Counted from the first letter of the stretch, positions 2,729 to 45,230 are shown. The stretch is 45,909 bases of DNA from Bacillota bacterium (GCA_012520795.1 JAAYNP010000011.1:1-45909), one strand, 5' to 3'. Numbers and translations are program-made. Notes: generated by a model not told the origin, from the sequence alone.

Positions 2729-2740
2729 GAGGTTGTATTT

Positions 2741-3214: not shown

Positions 3215-3239
3215 TATGGAATAAGGATGTGTCCTGAAC

Positions 3240-3839: not shown

Positions 3840-3860
3840 AACGTAAATGAGGGAAAAGGA

Positions 3861-4871
3861 ATGAAAGAATCAACCGACACCAGGTACGTGTATACGATTT
3901 CTCGCATCCGCGTCATCGAACAGAAGATGCTCAGCCCTGCCATGCTGGAACGAATGATTGAAGCCGGCACACCGGAAGAAGCCCTAAAGGTGCTTCACGA
4001 TGCCGGCTACGGTTACGCAGGCGAAGGCTACAGTGTCGGTGACTATGAACGGCTGTTGAGCGAGGAACAGGAAAAGGTATACCGGCTCTTGATGGAGACT
4101 GTCCCTGACACCCGTGAGTTTGATTTTTTGATCATCAAGAACGACTATCATAACCTAAAGGTGTGCCTTAAGGCTGAGTTTTCCGATCAGGCGGTTGAAG
4201 ACGCGTACTTGCTCAGCCCAAGCCTGGTCCCCGGCAAACAGCTTATGGATCTGCTTAGGGAGCGGAACTTTTCGGGGCTTCCAGCCCCTATGGCGGAGTC
4301 GGCAGCTGAAAGCATTGAAGCCTTTACTAAGATGCAGGATCCACAGGTGATCGACCTGATCCTTGACAAAGCGCATTACGGCCATATGCTGATGCTCAGT
4401 GACGGGCTCGGCAGTGAGTTTGTCTCCAAACTGGTCAATGCCTTGGTGGATCTTACCAACTTAAAAATGCTGCTGCGGGCGAAGCTGATCAAAAAGCCGC
4501 GGGGGTTCCTGGAATCCCTGTTGATCGAGGGCGGCAGTTTTGACAAAGAGTTTTACCACAAGCTATTTGAACTCGGGTATGACCAGATTGCCAGCGCCTG
4601 TGTCGATACAGAATACTATCGGCTGCTGACTGAAAGCATCAATGCTTTGAAGCTGTCAGGCAGCTTGGCTGGGTTTGAAAAGCTCTGTGACAACTATCTG
4701 GTGGATGTGCTGAAGACAGTGAAATATGCGATCTTCGGCATCGAGCCGTTGGTTGCCTATTATTTGGCCAAGGAACTGGAAATCAAAAATGTCAGGATTA
4801 TCATGGTGGGCAAGATCAATGGTTTGGCACAATATGCCATCAGGGAAAGGCTGAGGGAAACCTATGTATAA
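3861..4871 (+). CDS. V/A-type ATPase subunit C (d-type central-stalk socket)
   Basis: 336 residues, mostly helical, with repeated helical bundles typical of the vATP-synt_AC39 family (NtpC/subunit d). The C-terminal motif EIKNVRIIMVGKINGL resembles the family signature (E-x-x-N-[VIL]-R-x-I). The protein caps the K ring and receives the D/F shaft. A GAGGGAAAAGGA tract precedes the ATG. The last 8 nt overlap the start of subunit F, indicating translational coupling. Confidence 0.92.
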   Translation: MKESTDTRYVYTISRIRVIEQKMLSPAMLERMIEAGTPEEALKVLHDAGYGYAGEGYSVGDYERLLSEEQEKVYRLLMETVPDTREFDFLIIKNDYHNLKVCLKAEFSDQAVEDAYLLSPSLVPGKQLMDLLRERNFSGLPAPMAESAAESIEAFTKMQDPQVIDLILDKAHYGHMLMLSDGLGSEFVSKLVNALVDLTNLKMLLRAKLIKKPRGFLESLLIEGGSFDKEFYHKLFELGYDQIASACVDTEYYRLLTESINALKLSGSLAGFEKLCDNYLVDVLKTVKYAIFGIEPLVAYYLAKELEIKNVRIIMVGKINGLAQYAIRERLRETYV

Positions 4872-5184
4872 AATTGGTGTCATTGGTGACCAAGACAGCA
4901 TCCTGGGGTTTAAAGCGATTGGTATGTCCGTTTTCCCGGCTGAAGGTTCAGAGCAAGCGGGAGCAATCTTGGAGCAGTTAGCCCGGGAGGATTATGCTGT
5001 GGTCTATATTACAGAACAGATTGCCAAGGATCTGGCGGATGTTATTGATCGGTACAAAGACAGGCTGATGCCGGCGATCATCTTGATTCCCAGCAATCAA
5101 GGCTCATTGGGCATCGGTATGCGCAATGTGCAAAAATCCGTGGAACGGGCTATAGGCGCAGACATCTTGTTTAGAGATGCTTAA
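4864..5184 (+). CDS. V/A-type ATPase subunit F (rotor shaft)
   Basis: 106 residues with a Rossmann-like beta-alpha pattern: KIGVIGDQDSILGFKAIG at the start, a central VVYITEQIA strand-helix, and the AIILIPSNQGSLGIG segment. This is the standard size and layout of the F subunit (NtpG-type), which binds subunit D in the central shaft and regulates ATP hydrolysis. Its ATG lies inside the end of the subunit C gene. A 43-nt gap precedes subunit A. Confidence 0.92.
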   Translation: MYKIGVIGDQDSILGFKAIGMSVFPAEGSEQAGAILEQLAREDYAVVYITEQIAKDLADVIDRYKDRLMPAIILIPSNQGSLGIGMRNVQKSVERAIGADILFRDA

Positions 5185-5227
5185 GTGGCATAAGCTGCAA
5201 TATGAGGGCGAAAGAAGGTAAGGCATT

Positions 5228-7015
5228 ATGAGTCATGGAAGGATAGTTAAAGTTGCAGGCCCTTTGGTTGTTGCTGAAGGCATGCAGGATGTGAGCATGT
5301 TTGACGTGGTCCGGGTCAGCGATCGGCGTTTGATCGGCGAAGTACTGGAGATGCGCGATGACCGGGCGTCAATCCAAGTCTACGAAGAGACGGCAGGCTT
5401 GGGGCCGGGCGAACCTGTTTACGGAACAGGGGCGCCATTGAGCGTGGAACTAGGGCCTGGCCTGATCGGCACAATTTTTGACGGAATCCAACGCCCCTTG
5501 GAAGTCATTCGGGAAATGGTTGGAAGCAATATTACCAGAGGAATCGATGTCCCCGCAGTGGATCGGGCTAAACGCTGGCGCTTTGAACCCTCGGTTGAGG
5601 AAGGCGCTCAGGTAACGGCTGGAGATATCATCGGCAAGGTGCAGGAAACGGAAGTTGTGGAACACCGGATCATGGTGCCCCATGGATTGGAAGGCACGAT
5701 AACCGAGATCAACCCGGGAGAGTTTACTGTTGAAGAAGCTGTAGCCAAGCTGCAAACCGCGGGCGGCGATCTTGTAGAGCTGACGATGATGCAGAAATGG
5801 CCGGTGAGGATTGGCCGCCCATATAAAGAAAAACTGCCGCCGGTTGAGCCCATGGTCACCGGGCAAAGGGTGATCGACACTCTGTTTCCCATTGCCAAAG
5901 GCGGAGTGGCTGCCGTACCGGGGCCGTTCGGCAGCGGCAAGACAGTGGTCCAGCACCAATTGGCTAAATGGGCTGATGCTGACATCGTAGTCTACATTGG
6001 CTGTGGTGAGCGGGGTAATGAGATGACCGATGTATTGATGGAGTTTCCGGAACTGAAGGATCCCCGCACCGGTGAATCGTTAATGAAGCGTACAGTTTTG
6101 ATCGCGAATACCTCAGACATGCCTGTGGCTGCCCGGGAAGCTTCCATCTATACCGGTATCACCATTGCTGAGTATTTCCGGGATATGGGCTACAGTGTGG
6201 CCTTGATGGCCGATTCCACTTCCCGCTGGGCTGAAGCTCTGCGGGAGATGTCCGGAAGGCTTGAGGAGATGCCCGGTGAAGAAGGGTATCCGGCATATTT
6301 GAGTTCCCGCCTGGCTCAGTTCTATGAAAGGGCGGGCCGAGTAATCAGCATCGGTTCAGAAGGCAGGGAGGGGACGCTTTCGGCAATTGGGGCAGTATCA
6401 CCTCCAGGCGGCGACTTGTCTGAACCGGTGACCCAGGCTACGTTAAGGATTGTAAAGGTATTCTGGGGTCTTGATGCGAGCCTTGCTTACCGGCGTCATT
6501 TCCCGGCAATCAACTGGCTGCGGAGCTATTCGCTCTATGTCGATCAGTTGGAAGAATGGACCAATGCCAATATTTCCAGGGATTGGACCAAATTGAGGGC
6601 TGACACCTTGAGGATTCTGCAGGAAGAAGCGGAGCTTGAGGAAATCGTAAGATTGGTGGGAATTGACTCGCTGTCGGCATTGGAACGGGTTACCCTGGAA
6701 GCGGCCAAATCCATCCGTGAAGACTACCTCCATCAAAACGCTTTCCATGAGGTGGATACTTATACATCATTGAACAAGCAGTACCTGATGCTGAAATTGA
6801 TCCTGGCCTTTTATTACAAGGCGTGCGATGCTGTCAAAGCAGGGGTCTCCCTCGACAGCCTCTTTGCACTTCCGGTACGGGAAAGGATCGGCAGAGCTAA
6901 ATATGTCCCGGAGGATCAAGTGAATGCCGCCCTGAGCGGAATTGAGGCCGAGTTGAATGCCCAGATTGATGCACTGGTGGCAAAGGAGGTAGGTTCGGAT
7001 GCTGAAGGAATATAA
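5228..7015 (+). CDS. V/A-type ATPase catalytic subunit A
   Basis: 595 residues, the normal length for subunit A including the ~90-residue non-homologous insert after the beta-barrel. The P-loop GPFGSGKT spans 232-239, followed by [11 protein letters not shown] with the catalytic glutamate. Later come [22 protein letters not shown] and [15 protein letters not shown], both hallmarks of A subunits. It hydrolyses or makes ATP in the A3B3 head. The last 17 nt overlap the B subunit gene, whose Shine-Dalgarno AAGGAGG lies inside this gene's end. Confidence 0.98.
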
Positions 7016-8393
7016 AACCATTACGGAAGTGGCAGGGCCCTTAATGCTTGTCAAGCAGGTGGAGCATGTCAAATACGAAGAGTTGGGCGAGATTGAACTG
7101 CCGAATGGCGATGTCCGCTTGTGTAAGGTGCTTGAGATAGATGAAGACAATGCCCTCGTGCAGTTGTTTGAGAGTTCGGCAGGAATTAACGTTGCAGAAA
7201 GCAAGGTCCGTTTTTTGGGTAAAGGTATTGAGCTTCCCGTATCCCTGGATATGCTGGGGAGGGTGTTTTCAGGCCTGGGAAGGCCCGCCGACGGCGGCCC
7301 CGAGATTATCCCGGAGGCCAGGATGGACATTAACGGGATTCCCATGAACCCGGCGGCCAGGGATTATCCGTCGGAGTTTATTCAAACCGGAGTTTCAGCT
7401 ATCGATGGTTTGAACACCCTGGTTAGAGGGCAGAAACTGCCAATTTTCTCCGGATCAGGATTGCCCCACGCTCAGCTGGCAGCCCAAATTGCCAGGCAGG
7501 CCAAGGTACTGGACGATGCAAGCAGGTTTGCAGTAGTCTTTGCTGCTATTGGGATTACTTTTGAAGAAGCCGACTGCTTCATCTCCGATTTTATCCGCAC
7601 CGGTGCCATTGACCGCACTGTTGTGTTCATCAATTTGGCAAATGATCCGGCGATTGAGCGGATTTCCACTCCCCGGATGGCTATGACTGCCGCGGAATAC
7701 CTTGCTTTCGAAAAAGACATGCACGTGCTGGTTATTTTAACCGATATCACGAATTATGCAGAGGCACTGCGGGAAGTGTCAGCCGCCCGGAAAGAAGTGC
7801 CAGGGCGCAGAGGTTATCCCGGCTACCTTTACACTGACCTAGCCACAATTTATGAGCGGGCCGGCCGTAAAAAGGACAGCAATGGCAGTATCACGCTGAT
7901 CCCGATTCTTACCATGCCGGAGGATGACAAAACCCACCCAATCCCAGACTTGACAGGGTATATTACGGAAGGGCAGATCATCTTAAGCCGAGAGCTGAAC
8001 CGCAAGGGGATCGAACCTCCTATCGACGTTTTACCGTCTCTCTCCCGGCTTAAGGATAAAGGAATTGGAGCTGGTAAGACCCGGGAGGACCATTCGGATA
8101 TCATGAACCAGCTGTTTGCTGCCTATGCCACCGGCAAGGAGGCCAAGGAATTGGCTGTTATCCTCGGCGAGGCGGCACTGACCGAAACCGACAAGCTTTA
8201 TGCTGAGTTTGCCGATCAATTTGAAGCCAAATACGTTTCTCAAGGTTTCAACGAAAACCGGACAATCGAGCAGACGCTGGAGTTGGGATGGGAACTGCTG
8301 TCGATTCTGCCGCGGAGTGAGCTGAAACGGATTCGTGATGAATACATTGACAAGTACCTTACCAGGTATCTCCCGGAAAGAGGAGAGAGCTAG
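6999..8393 (+). CDS. V/A-type ATPase regulatory subunit B
   Basis: 464 residues with the B-subunit features: [18 protein letters not shown] where catalytic subunits have a P-loop, [28 protein letters not shown], and the [24 protein letters not shown] segment. B subunits alternate with A in the hexamer and contribute the arginine finger; nucleotide hydrolysis at B itself is not expected. The ATG at 6999 is preceded by AAAGGAGGTAGG. Its stop (8391-8393) is followed immediately by the ATG of subunit D. Confidence 0.97.
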
Positions 8394-9080
8394 ATGGACA
8401 ATATCCTGAATGTCAACCCCACCAGGATGGAGATGACAAAGCTAAAGAAAAGGCTTGCCGTGGCCCGGAGGGGGCACAAACTGCTGAAGGATAAACGTGA
8501 TGAATTGATGAAGATTTTTCTGGATGTGGTGAGGAGGAATAAAGAGCTGCGGGAGCAGGTGGAAGAGCTTCTCACAAAGGCCCATCAAAGCTTTCTCGTT
8601 GCCAGGGCGGTCATGTCTGTCCCTGTTGTGGAGGAAGCGCTGATGTTTCCCAAGCAAACAGTGGAACTTAGTGTGGAAACAGCCAATCTAATGAGTGTCA
8701 CTGTACCACGGTTCAGCTATGCAACAGCAGTCGCGCAAACTGATGATGCGGATTCTGCCTTAGGCTGGGATATCTTTCCCTACGGCTTTGCCACTACTTC
8801 AGGCGATTTGGACGCTTCGATGCAGATTCTGGCGTCGGCCCTGCCTTTAATGCTGGAGCTTGCGGAAAGCGAAAAGACCGCCCAGCTTTTGGCTGAGGAA
8901 ATTGAAAAGACCCGCAGACGGGTCAATGCCTTGGAGCATGTTTTGATTCCACAGCTGACAGAAACGATCCACTATATAACCATGAAGCTGGAGGAGAACG
9001 AACGGGGCAATATCACCAGGTTAATGAAGGTCAAGGATATGATGCTGGAGCAAACTTACCGCTATCGAGAAAGAATGTGA
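8394..9080 (+). CDS. V/A-type ATPase subunit D (central rotor shaft)
   Basis: 228 residues. The N-terminal VNPTRMEMTKLKKRLAVARRGHKLLKDKRDEL signature (about 6-37) and the C-terminal long helix (about 155-210, RRRVNALEHVLIPQL) are diagnostic of subunit D. The two helices form the antiparallel coiled-coil axle that turns inside A3B3 and docks on subunit C. It directly abuts subunit B. Its TGA stop (9078-9080) is followed without any spacer by the stop of the convergent exonuclease gene, and no operon terminator is seen between them. Confidence 0.96.
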   Translation: MDNILNVNPTRMEMTKLKKRLAVARRGHKLLKDKRDELMKIFLDVVRRNKELREQVEELLTKAHQSFLVARAVMSVPVVEEALMFPKQTVELSVETANLMSVTVPRFSYATAVAQTDDADSALGWDIFPYGFATTSGDLDASMQILASALPLMLELAESEKTAQLLAEEIEKTRRRVNALEHVLIPQLTETIHYITMKLEENERGNITRLMKVKDMMLEQTYRYRERM

Positions 9081-23715: not shown

Positions 23716-24459
23716 TTGCCTATGGATGTTCAGCAATGGGAACGGTTGAAACAAGAAATTGTCCGCTTTATGATGACGTACAAGTTTGCCGTTGAGGAAT
23801 TGAGGACCAAGATCGAAATTCTTAGACAGGAATTTCATTATATCCACGATCATAACCCTATTGAACAAATAACCTGCCGTGTCAAAAGCCCCGAAAGCAT
23901 TCTGCAAAAAGCCCGCCGCAAAGGAGTACCCCTGTCCTTGCCGGCGATCAGGGAAAACATTCGTGATATTGCCGGCGTGCGTATCATTTGTGCTTTTGTG
24001 TCAGACATATACAGAGTCAGTGAAATGCTTCAGAAACAGTCGGATCTCCATATTGCGGAATGCAAGGACTATATTCAGAATCCCAAGCCCAACGGTTACC
24101 GCAGCCTGCATTTAATTGTACAGCTTCCGGTGTTCATGTCTGATCATACTGAAAAAGTCTGGGCTGAAATCCAGATCCGAACCATTGCCATGGATTTCTG
24201 GGCCAGTCTCGAACACAAGCTGAATTACAAGTACAACTATCAAATTCCAGAACCACTCTTGAATGAACTGCGGGCAGCAGCTGAATCCATTGCCGCACTG
24301 GATGCCAAGATGGAAAAGATTAACCGGCAGGCGAATCATTTTAAGGCAACACTGCAAACTGATGATGCATTGCAGGAACTGTGGCTGAACAATCAGCGTT
24401 ACCATCTGCCTAAAGAATTCCTCAGTATGCTGTTAAATCTGGACAATAGTCGAGAGTAG
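23716..24459 (+). CDS. Small alarmone synthetase, RelQ/YjbM-like GTP pyrophosphokinase
   Basis: 247 residues with the RelA/SpoT synthetase domain: RDIAGVRIICAFVSDIYRV, KPNGYRSLHLIV and EIQIRTIAMDFWASLEHKLNYK in order. A C-terminal helix follows, as in single-domain synthetases, and no HD hydrolase or TGS/ACT domain is present. It makes (p)ppGpp from ATP and GDP/GTP in the stringent response. Two starts are possible: TTG 23716 (GGAG 5 nt upstream) and ATG 23722 (11 nt). The 33-nt gap suggests co-transcription with the AI-2E gene. A terminator follows at 24507. Confidence 0.94.
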   Translation: MPMDVQQWERLKQEIVRFMMTYKFAVEELRTKIEILRQEFHYIHDHNPIEQITCRVKSPESILQKARRKGVPLSLPAIRENIRDIAGVRIICAFVSDIYRVSEMLQKQSDLHIAECKDYIQNPKPNGYRSLHLIVQLPVFMSDHTEKVWAEIQIRTIAMDFWASLEHKLNYKYNYQIPEPLLNELRAAAESIAALDAKMEKINRQANHFKATLQTDDALQELWLNNQRYHLPKEFLSMLLNLDNSRE

Positions 24460-24506: not shown

Positions 24507-24534
24507 AAAGAGCCTCGATGACAGGCTCTTTTTT
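24507..24534 (+). terminator. Intrinsic terminator after the alarmone synthetase
   Basis: AAAGAGCCT (24507-24515) pairs with AGGCTCTTT (24523-24531) around a 7-nt loop, followed by a run of T to 24534. Confidence 0.92.
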
Positions 24535-24726: not shown

Positions 24727-26910
24727 GTGGCCAGGCATAGAGCCTTTGTGATCTTGATAATAACAGTTGCGCTTATGTCGGCAGCGGCTGGTCTTGTGTG
24801 TGCGGCGGCACCTTACGACAGCTACCTGTTTAACTTCTGGGGTGACAAAGCGCCAGCACCTCAAGCGTATATTCCGGTGGGCTTGGTTGACGGCCAATCC
24901 GTGGGCACCGGCCCGTTCAGGCGGCCCCAGGATATGGCTATCGGGCCGGACATGCGGGTTTATATTGCCGATTCAGGAAACAGCCGGATTATCCGCTTAT
25001 CGCCGGAACTCGAGTTTGAACTGGAGATCAAGTCATTTGTAAATGACGGCCAAAATGATTCATTTCGCAATCCCAGCGGGCTTACGGTCACTGACGAAGG
25101 AGAGCTGTATATTGCAGATACGGATAACGGCAGATTAGTGGTTATGGACAAGGACGGGAATCTGATCCGGATTATCGGTGAACCCGAGTCGTCTGACCGG
25201 GCTTTGATCAAGGATGATTACATCTACCGTCCCCTCAAGGTCGAAGTCGATCCTCTAGGCAGGATTTACGTTTTGGCAGCCAATGTCTATGAGGGGATTT
25301 TCCAGTTTGATAGTGATGGTTCGTTCCACGGGTTCATCGGTGCCCCGAGGGTGAAGGCCTCGCTCGCTGACATTTTTTGGATGAGAATAGCCACCGAAGA
25401 GCAGCGGGCCCAATTTCAACTGCTGCTGCCCATTGAATATGCCAACATGGGAATCAGTACAGATGGGATGCTGTATGCCGTACTTCGGGAAACAGCTGTG
25501 AACAAGAATCATGAAATCGTTAAAAAGCTAAACCCTGCGGGTTCGGATATCATGAGCCGGTTTGGGCAGCTGCCCATCATTGGCGACATTCAGGTTTCCG
25601 GCAGCGATTTTGTTGCCGATTCTGCATTTGTTGATGTCCTTGGCAGGGATTACGGCATGTTCAGCGTTCTCGATGCCACCCGGGGCAGGGTTTTCACATA
25701 TGACGGCAACGGCAGCTTGTTGTATGTTTTTGGCGGCATCGGGGATCTGTTGGGGCGGTTCCGCAACCCGGTGGCTTTAGGAGAGATCGGCAATAAGCTT
25801 GTTGTGCTGGACAACCGCGGCTTGACTCTCTTCGAGCCCACTGTCTATGCTCAGGCAATTCATGAAGCCATTCAGAATTACGACGGCGGTTTCTATAAAG
25901 AAGCGGCAGAAATGTGGCAAAAGGTTCTGGATCAGAACCCAGGGTTTGAAATAGCTTATAACTGGATCGCTACCACTGCCGTATTGGAGCAGGATTATGG
26001 CACTGCACTCGCCTATTACCGCCTAGGGCAAGACCGGTCCGGGTATTCGCAGGTTTTCTCGAAGCTGCGCCAGCAGTTTGTCAGTGATTACATCACCTGG
26101 ATCATGCTTGGTGTATTTGCCCTCTTCATATTCTTGTTTGTCGGGCCGAGGCTGAGAATCAGCGAGAGAATCAGCAGGCGGTTGGGCCTTGCAGATAACC
26201 CCAGAATCCTGGCGGAGCTGAGCGCTCATCTGGATGCCATGCCAAATGGGGCTGTGCCAAAGCGGAAAAAACGCGAATTTTTCGTCCGCAAATTGATTGA
26301 CAGCGTGCTCTACTCTTTGCATGTAATCTTTCATCCTTTCGATGGGTTTTGGGATCTGAAACACGAGCGGAGAGGGACTTTTGCTGCGGCCAATGTTTTG
26401 CTGGCATTGACGATCTTCACCTATGTTGTCATCCGTCAATACACCGCGTTTCCATTTAACTACCTGAAAGTGTCTGAAATCAGCCTTGTCTCCGATACCA
26501 TCGGTATTCTGGTGCCGTTCTTGCTCTGGGTTGGAGTGAATTGGGCCTTCACCACACTGATGGAAGGCAAAGGCACTGCGAAAGAGATTTATATCATGTC
26601 AGCCTACGCTCTCACTCCCATTATTATTTTGAATCTCCCGGCAACGTTGGCAAGCCACATGTTGATCGAGGCTGAAGGCAGTCTGCTGACATTGGTCCGT
26701 GCCATTTCGGTGATCTGGGCCTTAATGCTGCTGCTATTGGGCACCATGATTTTGCATGAATATACCATGGCCAAGACTCTGGTCACAGCGGTGTTGATTG
26801 TGTGCGGGATTGCTGCGGCATTGTTTGTTGGGCTTTTGTTTACCAGTGTGATTGATCATATCAGCCGTTTTGTTTTGACGATCTATTCCGAGCTTAGATA
26901 TAGGTTGTAG
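24727..26910 (+). CDS. Secreted/membrane NHL-repeat, TPR and YIP1-domain protein
   Basis: 727 residues from GTG 24727 (GAGGTG 6 nt upstream). A signal peptide (about 1-28, ending AGLVCAAA) leads into an NHL beta-propeller (about 55-380) with repeats such as DMAIGPDMRVYIADSGNSRIIRL and GLTVTDEGELYIADTDNGRLVV. A TPR-like pair (about 382-440, GFYKEAAEMWQKVLDQNPG) follows, then a helix near 450-470. A basic cytoplasmic segment leads to a YIP1-type domain of five helices (about 530-727), including YALTPIIILNLPATL. The propeller would lie outside and YIP1 in the membrane. It is the first gene of a cluster with a DUF5696 protein and a sugar-type ABC transporter. The function is unknown. Confidence 0.85.
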   Translation: MARHRAFVILIITVALMSAAAGLVCAAAPYDSYLFNFWGDKAPAPQAYIPVGLVDGQSVGTGPFRRPQDMAIGPDMRVYIADSGNSRIIRLSPELEFELEIKSFVNDGQNDSFRNPSGLTVTDEGELYIADTDNGRLVVMDKDGNLIRIIGEPESSDRALIKDDYIYRPLKVEVDPLGRIYVLAANVYEGIFQFDSDGSFHGFIGAPRVKASLADIFWMRIATEEQRAQFQLLLPIEYANMGISTDGMLYAVLRETAVNKNHEIVKKLNPAGSDIMSRFGQLPIIGDIQVSGSDFVADSAFVDVLGRDYGMFSVLDATRGRVFTYDGNGSLLYVFGGIGDLLGRFRNPVALGEIGNKLVVLDNRGLTLFEPTVYAQAIHEAIQNYDGGFYKEAAEMWQKVLDQNPGFEIAYNWIATTAVLEQDYGTALAYYRLGQDRSGYSQVFSKLRQQFVSDYITWIMLGVFALFIFLFVGPRLRISERISRRLGLADNPRILAELSAHLDAMPNGAVPKRKKREFFVRKLIDSVLYSLHVIFHPFDGFWDLKHERRGTFAAANVLLALTIFTYVVIRQYTAFPFNYLKVSEISLVSDTIGILVPFLLWVGVNWAFTTLMEGKGTAKEIYIMSAYALTPIIILNLPATLASHMLIEAEGSLLTLVRAISVIWALMLLLLGTMILHEYTMAKTLVTAVLIVCGIAAALFVGLLFTSVIDHISRFVLTIYSELRYRL

Positions 26911-26938
26911 CGGATGTATGGGAACTGGAGGGAATAAC

Positions 26939-29737
26939 GTGCGATTAAAATCTTGTTTAGGGACGCAGTTGTATCTATGCCTGTTTTTGTTCCTGTCCTC
27001 CATTTTCTGCCTGGCTGCTGCTATGGAGCCGGTGGCGGAAGCAAACATGCCGGCGGGCTATGCTTTGGTTGCCGAAAACGAGCACCTGCAATTATACCTT
27101 AATGAAAATACTACGGAAATAGCTGTGGTTAACCGCGACAGCGGCAGGGTATGGTACAGTAACCCAAACCACGCCAAAGCACAAGAGCAGATTTTGATTG
27201 AGTACTACACACCCCGGGATGACCAACGTACCATGAACAACCGGGCTGATAGTGTCGCCCACGGTCAATTTGAGATTACACCACTTGAGGGCGGGGTGAA
27301 GATTGTTTACATTCTGGGCGAAGAGTGGACTGACGAGGATTACCTGCCGGTGTTTATCGCTGAAGAACGCTTTAATGAGGCGATTCTTTCCAAAATAGAG
27401 AATCAGAAGGACAGAGATTTTGTCCGCAATAACTACGTGCGTTTCTCCTTGGAGAAAATGCCCGAGGGATATGAACGTGTTGTCATCACCAATCTCAACA
27501 AGGATGCTTTGTTTGGTGAATACACCATCATGGCAGAGACGAACGTGTCGGGCCGGCAAAAGGCTGATTTTATCCGCCATGTATTGATCCAGATTTTGGC
27601 CTGTCGCAATGATGTTGGATCGTTAACCCAAATTAGGCCGGATATGGTTGCCCAGTTTATCGACAATCCCACCTATGTGCGGAAACCAAACATGCTTCCA
27701 TGGGATCTGGAGGATATGGCGGAGATCATCAAAGCGGCAGGCTATACACCGTTTGACAAACAAGAAGACAACGCTGCCTACAATCTGGAATTGCCGGAGC
27801 GAAAGGTGGAGAACTTTACAATTCCCATTGAATACTGCCTGGATGAGGACAGTCTGGTGGTGCGAGTCCCCATGGATGAGGTGAAGTATCCGAAGGATGC
27901 CTATACCAGCGATGTTTGGGGATTGCGCGGCGTACACTGGACTGTTATTCAAGATGAGCAGTTGATGGATGCTTTTGGCGGCATCGGCGGCGGAGGCCAG
28001 GTCACTTTTCCGCTCCATGCCATCAATGTGCTGCCCTATTTCGGTGCTCCGGGCGAGGCTGAACCGGGTTACATTCTGATCCCCGACGGTTCAGGCGCCT
28101 TGATTAGTCTATCCGGAGATCGTGTGCGCCAGACCGAGGATTTAACGCTCCAGCACCGCTTATACGGTGAGAATTTGTCAAATCTCAGTACAGCCACTGA
28201 CATTCAATCTGAGCTCGAGCTGCGCCGCCATTTTCAACCGCAGCAACTGCCGGTATTTGGCATGAAGCGCGGTGATGCCGGATTCTTGGGCATCATTGAA
28301 AAGGGAGATGCCGTCGCCAGCATCGTGGTCAAGACAGCCGGAAGGGTCAACCCCGTTGACACCGTTTACCCCCACTTCAACGTGATGCCAGTGGGTTCAG
28401 TCCAATTGGCAGTAAGCTCCAGGGGCGGTGGCGGCGCAAACATTAACACCTATCAGCAGCGGTTGGTAAACTCGGACCTCCAGATTCGCTATCTGTTCCT
28501 GGAAGGGGAAGATGCAGGCTATGCCGGGATGGCCCGTCTGTATCAGCAATACCTAATTGACCGGTACGGATTGGAACGGGTGAAACCGGAACCGGGTATT
28601 CCCTTTTATCTGGAATTGATCGGTGCCGTCCACCTTAAACAGCCGATCTTGGGCATTCCCCGGGACGTGGTCAAGCCGTTGACAACGTTTGCGCAAGCGG
28701 AGGCCATTATGGATGAGCTGATCGACAGCGGTGTCGGCAGCATCAAGCTGCGGTACACCGGATGGCTGTCAGGAGGGGTGGAGCACATCTATCCCAGCCG
28801 GGTCCGGGTGGAAAAGACTTTGGGAGGCCGCAGTGGGCTATTGGGCTTGGCATCATCGCTTCAGAGCAGGGGAGTGGAACTTTACCCTGATGTGACCCAA
28901 ACATTGGCACCCAGGAACCTTTTGGGCGATGGTTTCAGTTCCCAAAATGACGCGGCCTACTCGCTAAACAAGCATTTTGTGCAAAGGCAGCTCAATACTG
29001 GTACCAACACCTGGGTTGTATCGCCTCGAGCTTTTGCGAAGCAGGTTGATGGTTTTCTCAAAGACTACGAGAGGTATCAGATTGGGGCTTTGTCTCTGCG
29101 GGACTTGGGTACGGTGTTGAACGCGGATTTTCAGGAAAAGGATCAGCTGCTCATTGATCGGGAACAAGCGAAATTGATCACCATTGAGCAGATTGAAAAA
29201 CTGAACCGGAATCTTTCTCTGATGATGAACGGAGCAAACGTGTACGGCTTGGTGCATGCAGATCATGTCCTGAATATGCCCACCAGTTCCAGTGGGTTTG
29301 TGATTGCCGACCGGGAAGTGCCGTTCTACCAATTGGTTGCCCGGGGATATGTCAATTATGCCGGTTCAGCGTTGAACTATGCCATAGATTTCCGGGAGGC
29401 TCTGCTGAAAACATTGGAAACCGGTGCCAATCCGTATTTCATCTGGTCATATGAGGATTCGTCAATTCTAAAAGACACGCCATTTCAATACCTGCTGTCA
29501 ATCAATTACCAGACTTGGCTCGAAACGGCAATTGAGTATTACCATGAAGTGAATCAAGTGCTTGCGCCATTACAGGGGCAAACCATAGTGGATCACAGGC
29601 AGTTGGCGGATCGGGTTTATGAAACTACATTTGAAGGCGGGATGCGGATTATCGTCAACTATAACAGTGAACCAGTCCAGATTGGTGATTTGCATATTGA
29701 GGCCAAAGGTTATCTTGTAACGGGGGGAGAGCAATGA
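26939..29737 (+). CDS. Large secreted DUF5696 protein, glycoside-hydrolase-like
   Basis: 932 residues from GTG 26939, with GGAGGG 6 nt upstream. The N-terminal signal peptide is about residues 1-28. A beta-rich N-terminal half opens with ENEHLQLYLNENTTEIAVVNRDSGRVWYSNP, as in mutarotase-like domains preceding TIM barrels. Next come the ILIPDGSGALISL motif and a likely barrel (about 530-840) with strand-like segments such as GSIKLRYTGWLSGG, GVELYPDVTQ and GANVYGLVHADHVLNMP. A small C-terminal beta domain (ending GGMRIIVNYNSEP) closes the protein. I infer a carbohydrate-active enzyme, but no established catalytic pair can be named. The stop overlaps the MalF-like permease start by 4 nt. Confidence 0.82.
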   Translation: MRLKSCLGTQLYLCLFLFLSSIFCLAAAMEPVAEANMPAGYALVAENEHLQLYLNENTTEIAVVNRDSGRVWYSNPNHAKAQEQILIEYYTPRDDQRTMNNRADSVAHGQFEITPLEGGVKIVYILGEEWTDEDYLPVFIAEERFNEAILSKIENQKDRDFVRNNYVRFSLEKMPEGYERVVITNLNKDALFGEYTIMAETNVSGRQKADFIRHVLIQILACRNDVGSLTQIRPDMVAQFIDNPTYVRKPNMLPWDLEDMAEIIKAAGYTPFDKQEDNAAYNLELPERKVENFTIPIEYCLDEDSLVVRVPMDEVKYPKDAYTSDVWGLRGVHWTVIQDEQLMDAFGGIGGGGQVTFPLHAINVLPYFGAPGEAEPGYILIPDGSGALISLSGDRVRQTEDLTLQHRLYGENLSNLSTATDIQSELELRRHFQPQQLPVFGMKRGDAGFLGIIEKGDAVASIVVKTAGRVNPVDTVYPHFNVMPVGSVQLAVSSRGGGGANINTYQQRLVNSDLQIRYLFLEGEDAGYAGMARLYQQYLIDRYGLERVKPEPGIPFYLELIGAVHLKQPILGIPRDVVKPLTTFAQAEAIMDELIDSGVGSIKLRYTGWLSGGVEHIYPSRVRVEKTLGGRSGLLGLASSLQSRGVELYPDVTQTLAPRNLLGDGFSSQNDAAYSLNKHFVQRQLNTGTNTWVVSPRAFAKQVDGFLKDYERYQIGALSLRDLGTVLNADFQEKDQLLIDREQAKLITIEQIEKLNRNLSLMMNGANVYGLVHADHVLNMPTSSSGFVIADREVPFYQLVARGYVNYAGSALNYAIDFREALLKTLETGANPYFIWSYEDSSILKDTPFQYLLSINYQTWLETAIEYYHEVNQVLAPLQGQTIVDHRQLADRVYETTFEGGMRIIVNYNSEPVQIGDLHIEAKGYLVTGGEQ

Positions 29738-30651
29738 AAAAGCATCAACCGAGGAGGCGGTTGTTTTCGCTGACCCTGCGGCAGCAGAACATCGCAGCAG
29801 GCTATCTGTTCTCACTGCCTTTCATCCTGGGGTTCGTGTTTGTGTTCTTATATCCCACGATTCTGTCGGCTGTATTCAGCCTTAACGAGCTGGTGATCAC
29901 CAAAACAGGATACGCATTGAAATATGTCGGCTTTGAAAACTACCGCCATGTCTTTCAGGTTCACCCCACGTTCATCAGGGATTTGACTGAAACAACCATC
30001 AATATGCTTTCTCAGGTCTTTTGGGTTCTAGTTTTCAGTTTCTTTGCAGCCATTGTCCTCAACCAGAAATTCCGGGGCAGGTTGATAGCCAGGGCAATAC
30101 TGTTTCTGCCGATTATCATGGCTTCAGGCATCATTCTCAAAATTGAAGCCCGTGATTATATGACGGGGATACTGGAATATGGAATGGAATCTGTGTCCAC
30201 ATTCCTGGTTACACCGGCGCTGAGTGTCTATCTTTCCAAATTTCAGCTGCCTGATGCTTTGATTGAAAATATACTTGCCGCCATTGAGTCCTTGCCCAAC
30301 ATCATTAGAAGCTCAGGAATCCAGATTCTGGTTTTGCTCGCAGGCCTCCAGGCGATTCCCAGCTCTTTGTATGAAGCGTCCGAAGTGGAAGGAGCCACCG
30401 CTTGGGAAAATTTCTGGTTGATTACATTACCCATGGTAAGCCCTTTGATTTTGACCAACATCATCTATACAATCGTAGACTACTTCACCTCACCATCCAA
30501 TTTGATTGTGACCAATATCCGGGCGGCTGCTTTTGGAACCTTAGGATATGGTGTTGGTTCGGCCATGTCCTGGGTGTATTTCGGTGTAATAGGGACTATT
30601 CTGGCGATAACGTTTTTAATCTTTTCCCGTTTCGTGTTCTATCATGAGTAA
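29734..30651 (+). CDS. Carbohydrate-type ABC permease, MalF/UgpA-like
   Basis: 305 residues with six helices. The N-terminal RQQNIAAGYLFSLPFILGFVFVFLYP opening is typical of MalF/LacF-like permeases. The EAA loop reads LYEASEVEGATAWENFWLITLPMVSPLI (about 209-236). An extra stretch between helices 3 and 5 (about 130-195) is longer than in standard sugar permeases. The start overlaps the DUF5696 gene by ATGA, so synthesis of the two is coupled. With the next permease it forms the membrane channel of an importer. Confidence 0.93.
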   Translation: MKKHQPRRRLFSLTLRQQNIAAGYLFSLPFILGFVFVFLYPTILSAVFSLNELVITKTGYALKYVGFENYRHVFQVHPTFIRDLTETTINMLSQVFWVLVFSFFAAIVLNQKFRGRLIARAILFLPIIMASGIILKIEARDYMTGILEYGMESVSTFLVTPALSVYLSKFQLPDALIENILAAIESLPNIIRSSGIQILVLLAGLQAIPSSLYEASEVEGATAWENFWLITLPMVSPLILTNIIYTIVDYFTSPSNLIVTNIRAAAFGTLGYGVGSAMSWVYFGVIGTILAITFLIFSRFVFYHE

Positions 30652-30673
30652 TTTGGCAAAGGAGGGGTGAGGA

Positions 30674-31603
30674 ATGGCTGCAGCCCAACACAAAAGATAT
30701 TGGAAAAGAAACTTGCCAGGTTATGGATGGTCCCTGGTCCGGGCGGTGATCTTGATCGGTGTGTGTTATATTGTTATCTTTCCGATTCTCACCAAGATCG
30801 CATCTTCTTTCATGTCCCGCAATGATTTGTGGGATACGACAGTAGTCTGGATTCCCCGCTATCCTACATTGCGCAATTACGAATTGGCATGGCAGTATAT
30901 GAATTATCCCCGTGCCTTTTGGACTTCAGTCAAGTTATCGTTTATTGTCAGTGCTCTGCAGCTTGCCTCCAGTACACTGGTAGGCTACGGCATTGCCAGG
31001 TTCCACTTCAAAGGTGCCAAATTACTGTTCACACTGGCGATAGTCACTTTGATTGTGCCCCCGGAGTTGTTTATCATTCCTTTATTTTTAAATTTCCGCT
31101 ACTTTGACTTGCTCGGCCTGCTGCCGGCTAAGCTGGATTTGATCAATACTGTTTGGCCGGCGGTGATCATGGCTGCTACGTGTACCGGGCCCCGCAACAG
31201 CTTGTTCATCTATATTATGAGGCAGTATTTCAAGGGAATGCCCCGGGATTTGGAGGAGGCCGCCTATGTGGACGGGGCCGGTTCTTTCCGGACTTTCTAT
31301 AGAATTATGCTGCCGGCTGCCGTTCCGGCGATGGTGACCGTATTCCTGTTCGCATTTGTCTGGCAGTGGAACGATTATTATATGACTCAGATGTTTTACA
31401 GCAGTGCAACTACCCTGCCGATGATGCTTGACAAATTGCCCAACAGTGTCCTGGGCATGCGCTGGGAGTCATCTTTGCCTGAGACTTCACTGTTGAACAA
31501 TACAGGTAGTTTGCTTTTGATCGCCCCGTTGGTGATTCTCTATATATTCCTGCAGAAATATTTCGTGGAAAGCGTACAGCGTACAGGCATCACTGGGCAA
31601 TAG
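30674..31603 (+). CDS. Carbohydrate-type ABC permease, MalG/UgpE-like
   Basis: 309 residues with six helices. The MalG-type EAA motif DLEEAAYVDGAGSFRTFYRIMLPAAVPAMVTV is clear (about 191-222), followed by FLFAFVWQWNDYY. AAAGGAGGGG lies upstream of the ATG, 22 nt after the MalF-like gene. No ATPase gene follows, so the pair presumably uses a shared MsmK-type ATPase encoded elsewhere. Confidence 0.95.
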   Translation: MAAAQHKRYWKRNLPGYGWSLVRAVILIGVCYIVIFPILTKIASSFMSRNDLWDTTVVWIPRYPTLRNYELAWQYMNYPRAFWTSVKLSFIVSALQLASSTLVGYGIARFHFKGAKLLFTLAIVTLIVPPELFIIPLFLNFRYFDLLGLLPAKLDLINTVWPAVIMAATCTGPRNSLFIYIMRQYFKGMPRDLEEAAYVDGAGSFRTFYRIMLPAAVPAMVTVFLFAFVWQWNDYYMTQMFYSSATTLPMMLDKLPNSVLGMRWESSLPETSLLNNTGSLLLIAPLVILYIFLQKYFVESVQRTGITGQ

Positions 31604-31637
31604 ACAGTTGTGCGGTACGTCATTAGGTATCATTTTG

Positions 31638-31665
31638 TTGACCAAGAAGAATTGCTGACTATACT
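31638..31665 (+). promoter_or_regulatory. Internal promoter before the binding-protein gene
   Basis: TTGACC (31638-31643), a 16-nt spacer, then TATACT (31660-31665), 82 nt before the substrate-binding protein ATG. It would allow the binding protein to be made in excess over the permeases. Confidence 0.65.
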
Positions 31666-31747
31666 GATTAGGGGGTGGGAGTTTCAAAGGTTTTGTTATT
31701 CTGTTCATGAGCAGAAAACACTACTATAGGATTAGAGGAGGTCTACG

Positions 31748-33067
31748 ATGAAAAGGCTGTTGGTAATTGGTCTGGTTTTGGTGTTGGTTCTGCCTGTGGG
31801 GACAGCCTTTGCTCAAGATTATGTCCCAAGCCCAGGTGTTTTGAGCCCAGATCAAGTTGATTTTGGTGGAGCAATCATCACCTTTGTCGGCGGAGTTGAT
31901 GAGAGTCACTTTGGTGATGACACAGCCAAGGCAGGGCGCCTGCAGGAGGCAATGGAGCTGTTTAATATTGGTGGGTTTGTGTTTCTGTACCGGCCAAGTG
32001 TCGATATTTCCATGGCCAGAATCATGACCGGTGAAGCAACTCACGACATCATCCACAGAGACTGGCGCGATGAATACTTCAGCATGGCCGGTTTTGATAT
32101 GTTGGTGCCGCTGAATGATATCCTGCCTGATGAATATTTCGATTATCTCTTCCCGACTGACCAAAAGGTGCACACCGAAATCCTTGCCATTCGGGGCAAC
32201 ATCTATTCCTTCGGCCATCAGTATGGGAGCAATTGGCGCCCGACCGCTATGGTGTACAACAAGAGCATGCTGGAACGGGAAGGCCAGCCGGATATCTATG
32301 ATTTGTGGAAGAACTCAGTCTGGACATGGGAAGATGCCGAAAGGATCGCCATTGATGTTACCAGAGATACCGATGGTGACGGCGAGATTGATCAATGGGG
32401 TTTCGCATGGCGCCGGATTGACTACGCAATCTATATGAACAACGCCCAGTTTATCAAGATCGAACCTGATGGCCGATATCGCTATGGTTGGGCTGATGAA
32501 GAGGCGATCTGGGTATTCGACAAAATTGCCGAGTGGTACCGCGAAGGCTATATTGTACCCAGCAGCCTTGATGGTGACAACAGAATTCAACATGGCACAG
32601 TGGCCATGCAGTTTGGTTCCGACCACGCCGAAAACGGTGGTGTAGCCAACAACGGCGATATTATCGTTTATGCTCCGATTCCAACGGGGCCTCATGCCGA
32701 TCATTATGTCTATCCAGAATGGGCAGTCAAGTTTGCATCAATCCCTGTTACTGCTGTGAATCCCGAAGGGTTGATCGCTGTGCATGACTTCCTGTTCAGG
32801 AAAGACGACCTGGACTTTGACAGCTGGTTGGCTTCCACTATCGTCTCTCGTTATCCAAACCGCGAGTCTGCGGACCACCTGATGTACGCACTGCAGAACT
32901 GGCAAGGCGATGTAGAGTGGGTGAACGGACTGGATAGCCCGGAAGTATCGGTCGGCTGGAGCCAAGACCTTGCTCCGTTGTTCCGGGGTGATGTTGTTCC
33001 CCGTACTCACCTTGAAGCCAAGGCTCCTGTGGCTCAAGCGCAGATCGACGCACTGTTTAACAAATAA
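31748..33067 (+). CDS. Extracellular solute-binding protein of the sugar ABC cluster
   Basis: 439 residues with a cleavable signal peptide (about 1-22, ending TAFA). There is no lipobox cysteine, so the protein is predicted to be soluble rather than a lipoprotein. The body has the family-1 binding-protein pattern: MTGEATHDIIHRDWRDEYFSMAGFDMLVPLNDILPDEYF in lobe one and YSFGHQYGSNWRPTAMVYNKSML at the hinge. A DTDGDGEIDQWG calcium-loop-like motif lies near 200-211. GAGGAGGT precedes the ATG. It would deliver a substrate, probably an oligosaccharide, to the MalF/MalG-like permeases. Confidence 0.92.
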   Translation: MKRLLVIGLVLVLVLPVGTAFAQDYVPSPGVLSPDQVDFGGAIITFVGGVDESHFGDDTAKAGRLQEAMELFNIGGFVFLYRPSVDISMARIMTGEATHDIIHRDWRDEYFSMAGFDMLVPLNDILPDEYFDYLFPTDQKVHTEILAIRGNIYSFGHQYGSNWRPTAMVYNKSMLEREGQPDIYDLWKNSVWTWEDAERIAIDVTRDTDGDGEIDQWGFAWRRIDYAIYMNNAQFIKIEPDGRYRYGWADEEAIWVFDKIAEWYREGYIVPSSLDGDNRIQHGTVAMQFGSDHAENGGVANNGDIIVYAPIPTGPHADHYVYPEWAVKFASIPVTAVNPEGLIAVHDFLFRKDDLDFDSWLASTIVSRYPNRESADHLMYALQNWQGDVEWVNGLDSPEVSVGWSQDLAPLFRGDVVPRTHLEAKAPVAQAQIDALFNK

Positions 33068-42006: not shown

Positions 42007-42047
42007 AAGCCCTGGAAGCAGGTTGGTGCTCCCAGGGCTTTGTTTTT
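42007..42047. terminator. Bidirectional intrinsic terminator between rpiA and the RND gene
   Basis: AAGCCCTGG (42007-42015) pairs with CCAGGGCTT (42032-42040), followed by TTTGTTTTT. It overlaps the stop codon region of the convergent RND transporter. Confidence 0.9.
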
Positions 42048-45000
42048 AACCGCGGTTGACAGCGTCATACAAAATGGGGACGACAAACAGAGTCAGAACT
42101 GTTGCGTAAGCCAAACCGCAAATGGCCGTGATGGCCATTGGCTGGATCAAATCGGTCCCCGTGCCGATGCCAAGGCTCATGGTAGACAAGCCAAAGATGG
42201 TGGTCAAGGCCGTCATGAGAATCGGCCGCAGCCTGATTCGGCAGGATTCCACAATTGCATCCTGTTTGGCCATGCCCTCACTGCGCAGTTGGTTGATGTA
42301 GACAATCAATACGATTCCGTTGTTGACCACTACGCCTGTGAGGATGATCAAGCCGATGAATGCCACAATGCTCAGGGGATTGCCGGTGAACAGCAGTCCC
42401 AGAAAACCGCCGGTGAATGCCAGCGGGATAGTGGCCATCACAATCAGAGGCGACAGCAGTGATTGGAATTCAGCAACCATCACCAGGTAGATTAAGACTA
42501 CACCTACCACCAACACCAGAGTGAGTTCGTCGAATGATTCGAGGATTAACATTTGTTCTCCGCCGTATTCCACCTTATAGCCTTCCGGGAGTTGATAGCC
42601 CGCCAGGCGGCGGTCGATTTCCCTGCTGATGTTGCCTACAGTATAGCCTTCCTCAGCATTGGCGGATACAGTAACAAAGCGCTGTTGATTCTGGCGCATG
42701 ATTGTGGTGAAGCCTTTTGCCTGCTCTATGGTGGCGATATCACCAAGGCGTACAGGTTCACCCGCGAATGAATCAATCTCCAGGTCAAGCAGCTCGGATT
42801 CTGCCCGAAGTTGCGTCTGTGGATCGGTGACAAAGACACTGTATTCTGCATTACCAACTGTTAGGGTGGTCACGGCACTGTCAGAACTCAGCTCTTGATT
42901 TACCGCCAGCAGGACCTGCCCCACAGTAATCCCCTTAGCAATTCCTTTTTGCTTGTCCACGATGATCCTCAGCTCCGGCGCCGTATCTTCCAAGCCGTCC
43001 GAAACCTCGACAGTACCGGGCACGTCAGCAACAATGGCAGCAACATCTTTGGCGATCTGCTGCAGTGTATCCATATCCGGCCCCATGATATTCAAAGTCA
43101 CCGGGCTGCCTATTATGGAGGTAAAGTCCATCCCAGAAGCACTGATTGTGATTTTGGCATTCAAATTCTCAGTCTGCTCCCGTATTCTCTGGGCAATCTG
43201 GGTACTGGTCAAACTCCGGTCTTCTTTGAGCAGCAGATAACCAGAATAGGTCTTTGTGCCGCCACTAGCGCCGCCAAACCCAGGCCCCAGCATCGTGCCA
43301 CTTGAGCTGATACCAATTGTGTCAATATCACTGATATCCTTTAGAATGGCGGTCAGTTCATCGATGACTGCTGCAGCGTCACTGGCTGACAAATCTGGTG
43401 ACATTTCGATCTGCATCATGATCTGGTTGCTGTCGCTGACAGGGAGAAATTCCGTACCCATCCGCCACACACCAATGGCGCTGGCGATAAACAAAAGCAC
43501 AGTGATGGCTATAATCAGAGGTTTCTTCCGGAGGGCTCCTTTCACTATACGGGTATAAAAACCGGTCATTGCTTGAGTGAACCGGCCGGGTTTCGGTACA
43601 TCCCGCGCCAACATCCGTGATGAGATCATCGGTACGAATGTCAGAGCCACAAGCAAACTGGCGCTGAGCGAGTAAGTAATGGTAAGCGCCATATCAGTAA
43701 AAATCTTTCTGGTCATGCCATAGGTAAACACAATCGGCAAAAACACAGCGACTGTTGTCAAAGTGGAAGCTGTGATGGCTCCCGCAATCTGCTTCGTTCC
43801 CTCTACTGCGGCTGTTTTTGCCGACTTGCCTTCACTTCGCATCCGGTAGATGTTTTCAATAACTACAATGGAATTGTCGACCAGCATCCCGACTCCCAAG
43901 GCCAAGCCGCCCATGGAAATAATGTTCAGGCTGATGTTGCTGAAATACATTAATACAAAACTGGTAATAATACTCACCGGAATGGAGACGGCTACCACAA
44001 AAGTAGGTTTAATGTTCCGCAAAAAGATGATCAGGATCGCAAGAGCCAACAAGGTACCATAAATCATGTTGTCGAGCATTGAATTCAATGCCAGATCAGT
44101 ATATACGCCTTGGTCCATCAAGGCGGTAATGTGGAGCCCGGCATGTTTTTCCTGGAGCTTTTGGGACTGTTGGCGGATTTTCTTCGCAATATCCGCGGTT
44201 GAATAGTCGGTTTGTTTTTGGAAGATCAGCATTATTGCTTCTTCGTCGTTGACCCGGGTATAAGTGTTCCCGGTGTTGTAAACCAGCTCAATGTCGCTGA
44301 TATCGGCAAGAGTAATTGGATTTTGGCCGGGTAATGGCAGTGCGAGCAAGGGCAGCTGCTTGAGGTCATCAACAGTGTGAAGCCCATCGCCGACCCGGAC
44401 CAAATACGAATTGTCTTGTGTGGTGAGGTAACCTGCCGGCATGTTTAGGTTTTGCCCTTGAATAATACCGCTGACCATTTCCTTGGTCAGTTCCAAATCT
44501 TTAAGCTGTTCCAGATCGAACCCTGATTCCTGCAGCAGCGCCGTAAAATCGGTACCCTGCATGAACAAGCTGGGCAAAAACAGCATGGAATTGACCAACT
44601 GCTCCAGCTTTTGTTTTTGGAAGTCAATCTTTTCCTGATTGAGCGATACATGGATCTCCCTGTTTACCAGTCCGGTTGCAGTCACTGAAGCAACACCGAC
44701 AATCCGCTCATATTCGGGAATGACTGTGTCATTGACAAACTGGCTTGTATCGGCTAATGACTGGCCCTCAAGGGAGACCGATACCACCGATACCGGTAAG
44801 AGGTTGGGATTAATCCTCATAATCATTGGCGAGCTGACATCGCCGGGCATGAATGCAGTGATCATGTCCAGGTTTTCGCGGATCTCAATCATTGCCGAAT
44901 CCATATTGGTGATTTCACTGAACTCGAGTATGACCATGGAGACATTATTCGCGGACATTGAATAGACATTTTGAATGTTGCCCAGAGTGAACATGGACTG

Positions 45001-45201
45001 TTCAATGGGCCGGGTAACGCCAAGTTCGATCAATTCAGGGCTGGCGCCGGGGTATGCTGTAATGATCACCGCATAAGGCAGATTGATGTTTGGTAAGAGA
45101 TCGGTTGTCGTATTATAGACCGACATTGCACCCAATATTAAGACAATGATAAGGCCTACAATGATAGTATAGGGACGGTTGACACTGAATTCAGCAAACA
45201 A
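42046..45201 (-). CDS. RND-family efflux transporter (AcrB/SwrC-like)
   Basis: 1051 residues from TTG 45201, chosen because GGAG lies 8 nt upstream; the longer frame's GTG at 45210 overlaps that same GGAG. It has the duplicated RND layout: one helix, a ~300-residue extracytoplasmic domain, six helices, and the same again. LVDNSIVVIENIYRMRSEGKS (TM4 region) carries the proton-relay aspartate. GVVVNNGIVLIVYINQLRSEGM is its TM10 counterpart. No membrane-fusion or TolC gene is adjacent. SwrC-type pumps in Bacillota export lipopeptides and drugs without a tripartite partner. marR lies directly upstream (about 30-nt gap). Confidence 0.94.
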   Translation of the reverse strand: MFAEFSVNRPYTIIVGLIIVLILGAMSVYNTTTDLLPNINLPYAVIITAYPGASPELIELGVTRPIEQSMFTLGNIQNVYSMSANNVSMVILEFSEITNMDSAMIEIRENLDMITAFMPGDVSSPMIMRINPNLLPVSVVSVSLEGQSLADTSQFVNDTVIPEYERIVGVASVTATGLVNREIHVSLNQEKIDFQKQKLEQLVNSMLFLPSLFMQGTDFTALLQESGFDLEQLKDLELTKEMVSGIIQGQNLNMPAGYLTTQDNSYLVRVGDGLHTVDDLKQLPLLALPLPGQNPITLADISDIELVYNTGNTYTRVNDEEAIMLIFQKQTDYSTADIAKKIRQQSQKLQEKHAGLHITALMDQGVYTDLALNSMLDNMIYGTLLALAILIIFLRNIKPTFVVAVSIPVSIITSFVLMYFSNISLNIISMGGLALGVGMLVDNSIVVIENIYRMRSEGKSAKTAAVEGTKQIAGAITASTLTTVAVFLPIVFTYGMTRKIFTDMALTITYSLSASLLVALTFVPMISSRMLARDVPKPGRFTQAMTGFYTRIVKGALRKKPLIIAITVLLFIASAIGVWRMGTEFLPVSDSNQIMMQIEMSPDLSASDAAAVIDELTAILKDISDIDTIGISSSGTMLGPGFGGASGGTKTYSGYLLLKEDRSLTSTQIAQRIREQTENLNAKITISASGMDFTSIIGSPVTLNIMGPDMDTLQQIAKDVAAIVADVPGTVEVSDGLEDTAPELRIIVDKQKGIAKGITVGQVLLAVNQELSSDSAVTTLTVGNAEYSVFVTDPQTQLRAESELLDLEIDSFAGEPVRLGDIATIEQAKGFTTIMRQNQQRFVTVSANAEEGYTVGNISREIDRRLAGYQLPEGYKVEYGGEQMLILESFDELTLVLVVGVVLIYLVMVAEFQSLLSPLIVMATIPLAFTGGFLGLLFTGNPLSIVAFIGLIILTGVVVNNGIVLIVYINQLRSEGMAKQDAIVESCRIRLRPILMTALTTIFGLSTMSLGIGTGTDLIQPMAITAICGLAYATVLTLFVVPILYDAVNRG

Positions 45202-45230
45202 TATTACCACTCCAATCGTTCTGCTAGGCT

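Follow-up and report, generated by a model that had tools for sequence, protein, structure and literature searches.

The five-gene cluster described here is probably one representative of a distinct class of sugar ABC importers, in which two further proteins are obligatory, as added subunits or as partners: the YIP1 protein, a membrane protein that combines an NHL propeller with TPR-like helices and a Yip1 domain, and a protein of the DUF5696 family. The cluster lies at positions 24727-33067 of the window, by which we mean the whole stretch of 45,909 nucleotides that was analyzed, from a Bacillota bacterium (GCA_012520795.1, JAAYNP010000011.1:1-45909). A prior sequence-only reading had seen in it an uptake-and-processing system. 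ORF calling and Pfam gave five contiguous reading frames on the + strand, and the domains, the GTG starts and the ATGA overlap that had been read there were all confirmed. The features, in window coordinates, are the following.

24507-24531, + strand: terminator-like hairpin of 9 pairs with a T tail (consensus scan only)
24727-26910, + strand: NHL-propeller/TPR/YIP1 membrane protein (Pfam, AlphaFold2 model, Foldseek to NHL propellers); propeller at about 24823-25839, TPR-like helices at 25843-26025, transmembrane helix at 26035-26142, Yip1 domain at 26320-26829
26939-29737, + strand: DUF5696 protein with a predicted GH129-like fold (Pfam, profile search, predicted model); Pfam domain at 27764-29713, TIM barrel at about 28604-29572; codons of D729 (expected nucleophile position) at 29102-29104 and of N771 (expected acid/base position) at 29228-29230, in 939-residue numbering
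29734-30651, + strand: MalF/UgpA-like permease of a DUF5696-dedicated clade, with an EAA-type loop (NCBIfam relatives, permease profile)
30674-31603, + strand: MalG/UgpE-like permease with the EAA loop EEAAYVDGAG...LP (Pfam, NCBIfam)
31748-33067, + strand: sugar-type extracellular/periplasmic solute-binding protein, signal peptide without a lipobox (Pfam, similarity)

The first two genes are read from GTG codons, at 24727 for the YIP1 protein (727 residues) and at 26939 for the DUF5696 protein (932 residues). Ribosome-site-like stretches sit just upstream of both, and for this reason these starts appear better than the longer alternatives at ATG 24643 and ATG 26918, the latter giving 939 residues. 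The overlap at 29734-29737 couples the DUF5696 gene to that of the first permease. The putative hairpin lies between the cluster and a gene for a small RelA/SpoT-domain protein (23716-24459), directly upstream of the cluster; the gene directly downstream is convergent. A V/A-type ATPase operon (subunit I, A and B subunits) occupies positions 746-9080 of the window.

The sequence-only observation was real but understated, as the cluster is one of about ten copies in the genome. The source genome (2.37 Mb, 99% complete), surveyed with its other contigs included, holds ten DUF5696 genes and ten Yip1 genes, and the order YIP1, DUF5696, permease, permease on one strand is found in every copy with enough contig. 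In two copies the contig cuts through DUF5696, in one at the start of the contig and in the other at its end, and there is one Yip1 gene whose contig has no DUF5696. Two complete copies (L013 and L014, contig C118, 56000-86948) stand about 13 kb apart with a GH28 pectinase between them, and only one has an extra upstream permease pair.

The linkage extends to other genomes. Among 61 related genomes both families occur in 41, neither in 18, DUF5696 only in one and Yip1 only in one, and their copy numbers correlate with r = 0.97. A Yip1 gene is located at most 3 kb upstream of 91 of the 102 DUF5696 genes, and DUF5696 is found downstream of 91 of the 106 Yip1 genes. Of the DUF5696 exceptions, at least four begin no more than 600 bases from a contig start, and several of the Yip1 genes that stand alone have short ORFs (about 185-255 codons). 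Short stand-alone Yip1 proteins of this size of open frame, without DUF5696, were recorded at G007:C80:4173, G005:C14:1209, G008:C41:48609, G054:C10:253813 and G006:C14:22085.

Profile searches of six-frame translations were applied to 80 loci of other genomes; ORF calling misses some genes behind antisense ORFs in GC-rich genomes. The YIP1 protein was present upstream in all 73 loci with room for it; downstream, the first permease was there in 73 of 73 loci and the second permease in 72 of 72. These counts are not independent, as the loci were picked by DUF5696 similarity and many come from the same genus. The sources are Limnochordia-type MAGs, Paenibacillus, Cohnella, Lederbergia, Lachnospiraceae, other Clostridia and one spirochaete MAG. 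An absence of co-occurrence in other genomes had been named beforehand as the outcome that would speak against the cluster; the linkage is instead real and conserved. Together with the ten paralogous same-order copies in the source genome, the complete co-occurrence places the arrangement beyond chance. A longer upstream block was present in 50 of 61 loci with room. It consists of a protein of about 990 residues, which bears a binding-protein domain at its C-terminus, followed by a second permease pair, and the second pair with a binding-protein fusion of about 1000 residues is usual in Paenibacillus, Cohnella and Lachnospiraceae. The DUF5696 family is patchy across the phylum (15 of 199 genomes over the cut-off), and single genomes carry up to ten or eleven copies of the module. 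Two annotated plasmids have the module in the same order, with each gene named separately.

The transporter itself is of a familiar kind. In Pfam the second permease matches BPD_transp_1 (E 6e-18), the first one only weakly (E 0.017), and the best NCBIfam relatives of both are MalF/MalG/UgpA/UgpE; the two are a heterodimeric MalF/MalG-type pair with EAA loops, as in CUT1 importers. The last ORF matches SBP_bac_8 at E 8e-5, below the Pfam cut-off, and is distantly similar to an arabino-oligosaccharide-binding protein (E 7e-7), which marks it as the dedicated sugar-type solute-binding protein of a CUT1 system. ORF calls and Pfam revealed no ATPase gene within the window cluster. The genome has a single MalK-type ATPase (OB_MalK), on another contig and unlinked to any copy of the module, so that an ATPase of the MalK/MsmX type is available. 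The module thus resembles CUT1 importers of the MalEFG-MalK/MsmX type in its permeases with EAA loops, its sugar-type binding protein and its ATPase encoded elsewhere, and the proposal of an uptake system of the sugar-ABC type stands. It differs from ordinary CUT1 importers in that its permease clade is always accompanied by the YIP1 protein and DUF5696, and many of its relatives differ further by the two permease pairs and the large binding-protein fusion in one operon.

The specificity of the permease clade was seen within the source genome. A profile of the first permease gave nine strong matches there, at 279 bits or more and all adjoining DUF5696, and the next full-length match scored 112 bits; hence this clade is tied to the YIP1 and DUF5696 proteins. 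In the copy next to NamZ (L016:12321-14189) the first permease has 622 residues, of which about 400 precede the permease domain and have no Pfam match. We also compared distances among the paralogous operons of the source genome, with the two deepest copies excluded. Those of the YIP1 protein, DUF5696 and both permeases agree (r 0.79-0.91, Mantel p <= 0.009), and DUF5696 tracks the permeases (r 0.91 and 0.89) as tightly as the permeases track each other (0.87). The distances of the binding protein agree less with those of the other parts (r 0.17-0.65, from 10 pairs only). The tight linkage claimed at the outset therefore holds for the YIP1 protein, DUF5696 and the permeases, but the binding protein is the most loosely attached part. 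This co-variation supports a complex, short of proof, since duplication of whole operons could yield the same pattern. The familiar permeases and binding protein would also suit an ordinary CUT1 sugar operon, with the YIP1 protein and DUF5696 as hitch-hikers devoid of joint function. We regard this as highly improbable: the co-occurrence is complete over deep divergence, in several Bacillota classes and in both single and double permease versions, the permeases form a separate clade, and the linkage counts given above strongly disfavor it.

The YIP1 protein combines an NHL region (E 3e-15), a weak TPR match (E 0.003) and a Yip1 domain (PF04893) that scores 52.3 bits against a Pfam cut-off of 28.6, which makes it a member of that family. 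Its AlphaFold2 model (pLDDT 87.1, pTM 0.77; alignment of 37 relatives) shows a propeller, TPR-like helices, a transmembrane helix and a Yip1 helical bundle (helices 580-754), and Foldseek matches the propeller to NHL propellers. In many other genomes two slightly overlapping genes, one for the NHL/TPR part and one for Yip1, take the place of the single gene. The layout seen in the model, an external propeller with TPR above a membrane helical bundle, is sensor-like, and a similar external propeller is carried by Mycobacterium PknD (Foldseek). It could thus be imagined that the YIP1 protein works with DUF5696 in sensing or regulation, the two relaying the binding of sugar across the membrane and controlling the operon or the activity of the transporter. 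This is quite unlikely, as a Pfam scan found no signaling domain in the YIP1 protein, the LacI or histidine-kinase regulators beside some copies of the module are separate proteins, and the trees of the YIP1 protein and DUF5696 track that of the permease.

The sequence-only reading had Yip1 as otherwise known from membrane trafficking, which calls for correction. Bacterial Yip1 proteins already have a known connection to ABC transporters through bacteriocin export clusters (PMC10707071), which gives a precedent for Yip1 in transport. The likeness to these clusters (circular and leaderless bacteriocins, BawG being an example) is a Yip1 membrane bundle encoded beside ABC transporter genes. The bacteriocin clusters have an HlyD-type efflux protein, an ATPase and an exporter permease, and no propeller (PMC10707071), whereas in the module Yip1 accompanies importer permeases and is fused to, or encoded just after, the NHL/TPR part. 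By ORF calls and Pfam, no HlyD-like gene, ATPase or exporter permease stands beside Yip1 in the window cluster, which has importer permeases instead.

The location of these domains needs revision as well. The source genome encodes an Omp85 protein (G000:C119:23897-24763) and, at 42046-45210 of the window, an AcrB-type (RND) efflux pump, from which we infer that the organism probably has an outer membrane. The propeller, DUF5696 and the binding protein would then probably be periplasmic, and the earlier assignment of the propeller to the outside of the cell, with an extracellular location of the system, was downgraded. Paenibacillus, with one membrane, carries the module too, which therefore does not depend on an outer membrane.

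DUF5696 (PF18952) is matched in the second ORF with E 2e-181. No match to the GH129 model PF11308 emerged in a Pfam scan at E 0.1, and relatives of PF11308 that might serve as a bridge were found nowhere in 249 genomes of the phylum, the source genome included; a scan of viral contigs revealed no relatives of the window DUF5696. A profile of 34 members, searched against the PDB, did retrieve GH129 enzymes (5OPQ, E 4e-9; NagBb, E 2e-7; ZgGH129, E 3e-7). The predicted model (pLDDT 86.8, alignment of 34 relatives) matches these same enzymes over their full length in Foldseek (E 6e-30 to 3e-24, TM-score by target 0.69-0.73), followed by GH101, GH36 and GH31. It has the GH129 layout of an N-terminal beta-sandwich, a TIM barrel and a C-terminal beta domain, and DUF5696 is thus predicted to have the fold of a GH129 alpha-glycosidase. 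A structure without a sugar-active fold, set down in advance as a second way in which the proposal could fail, was not what the prediction gave. The likeness to NagBb (5WZN) and DagB/ZgGH129 (5OPQ, 8RZK) consists of the predicted fold across the whole enzyme and a detectable profile similarity; the differences are an identity of 12-13%, an expected catalytic pair that does not appear to be conserved, and the binding of DUF5696 to a transporter operon.

Residues named as catalytic or essential are D435 in NagBb and D486, E517, E531 and D202 in DagB (PMC5698469), and in this respect the two GH129 enzymes themselves differ. Placing the corresponding residues by sequence alignment was tried and given up, as the profile alignments cover the first half of the barrel and stop in its third strand, before those residues. 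The positions were therefore mapped by barrel strand and spacing only. By this positional mapping, the expected nucleophile position (end of strand 4, 729) is D or E in 81 of 114 DUF5696 members, the expected acid/base position (end of strand 5, 771) is acidic in 45 of 114, and both are acidic together in 26 of 114; the window copy has D at the first and N at the second. D390, D419, D737, N774, N820 and E834 are nearly invariant in the 114 members, and R748 is found in all of them. Since the two positions are acidic together in so few members, the usual GH129 pair does not appear to be a family feature, and a different catalytic arrangement may exist. A TIM barrel with an acid pair had been named as the features to look for; the barrel is predicted, and by this mapping the pair is seen in that minority. 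The cleavage of an extracellular polymer, which had been suggested, and with it hydrolysis by DUF5696, is therefore unproven, as the expected nucleophile and acid/base residues do not appear to be conserved as a pair.

An active DUF5696 alpha-glycosidase that trims polymers or oligosaccharides at the envelope, with the adjacent transporter importing the products and the YIP1 protein sensing or binding the polymer, is possible but doubtful. The closest solved relatives of its fold are characterized alpha-glycosidases, and the frequency of an acidic nucleophile position, with D in the window copy, and the nearly invariant D390, D419, D737 and E834 agree with activity. The acid/base position and the pair do not, and the enzymes that adjoin the module weigh against it further. 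Copies in the source genome lie next to GH10, GH8, GH3, GH115 and GH127 (xylan type), GH28 (pectin), a pectate lyase, GH95 with esterases, GH42, an arabinofuranosidase and NamZ (murein). In 20 loci of other genomes the first large gene after the permeases encodes GH38 in four, GH2, GH20 and GH30 in two each, GH5, GH9, GH29, GH42, GH95 and GH106 in one each, and in the remaining four a Melibiase-C/CBM6 protein, a DUF5060 protein, a LacI regulator and a protein without a match. A single DUF5696 family therefore stands beside enzymes whose sugars are chemically unrelated, a setting in which one would expect a catalytic partner to be swapped, and dedicated hydrolases already adjoin the module. No glycoside hydrolase gene adjoins the window copy.

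Since the neighboring enzymes differ from copy to copy, the module is independent of the kind of sugar, a reusable import module and not the pathway of one polymer. A single target polymer is for this reason rejected, and with it the one extracellular polymer initially envisaged: copies adjoin enzymes for xylan, pectin, arabinan, galactosides, mannosides, fucosides and murein. On a plasmid of Paenibacillus cellulosilyticus (L137, NZ_CP054609.1) the module is accompanied by a UgpC-type ATPase of its own, by three LLM-class flavin-dependent oxidoreductases and by two additional binding proteins, neighbors that make a substrate other than a plain sugar possible. The Gram-positive polysaccharide utilization loci of Paenibacillus, such as those of strain JDR-2, likewise unite glycoside hydrolases and a CUT1 transporter in one locus; the paper on the JDR-2 loci does not mention YIP1 or NHL proteins.

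We favor a role of DUF5696 as a subunit of the importer that is dedicated to sugar handling or docking. The MalF/MalG-like permeases would form the channel, powered by the single MalK/MsmX-type ATPase that the genome would share among copies, and the binding protein would hand over oligosaccharides freed by separate glycoside hydrolases. The Yip1 bundle would serve as the membrane anchor of the YIP1 protein, whose propeller and TPR would lie at the outer surface of the inner membrane; next to it, DUF5696 would be either anchored or secreted. The most likely task of DUF5696 is to bind or orient complex oligosaccharides where they enter the permease, some members perhaps trimming them, and the most likely task of the YIP1 protein is to dock DUF5696 and the binding protein onto the permease. 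A bolder version, a new kind of importer architecture that we consider rather unlikely, makes the YIP1 protein the membrane scaffold of a single complex of one or two MalFG-type permease pairs, their binding proteins and a DUF5696 that has a glycosidase fold but no catalytic activity. This complex would feed large or branched oligosaccharides into the channel, DUF5696 acting as a gate that guides the sugar and the propeller as the dock.

The module is a real, recurrent and apparently undescribed variant of the sugar ABC importer, with a mechanism that we infer. Neither a mention of DUF5696 nor a description of the module (under DUF5696, YIP1 with NHL repeats, or YIP1 with Paenibacillus transporters) was found in the searched literature, which covered few subscription journals, most being outside its reach; to that extent, the system is undescribed, as first supposed. 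DUF5696 and NHL-YIP1 proteins have been annotated singly, as unknowns, yet they are parts of a fixed module, of which carbohydrate-degrading Bacillota of soil, rumen and sediments have up to about ten copies per genome. If both proteins are subunits of the transporter, they would constitute a new accessory layer for sugar ABC importers, give a bacterial Yip1 protein a concrete role and provide a marker gene for glycan-uptake loci across many substrates.
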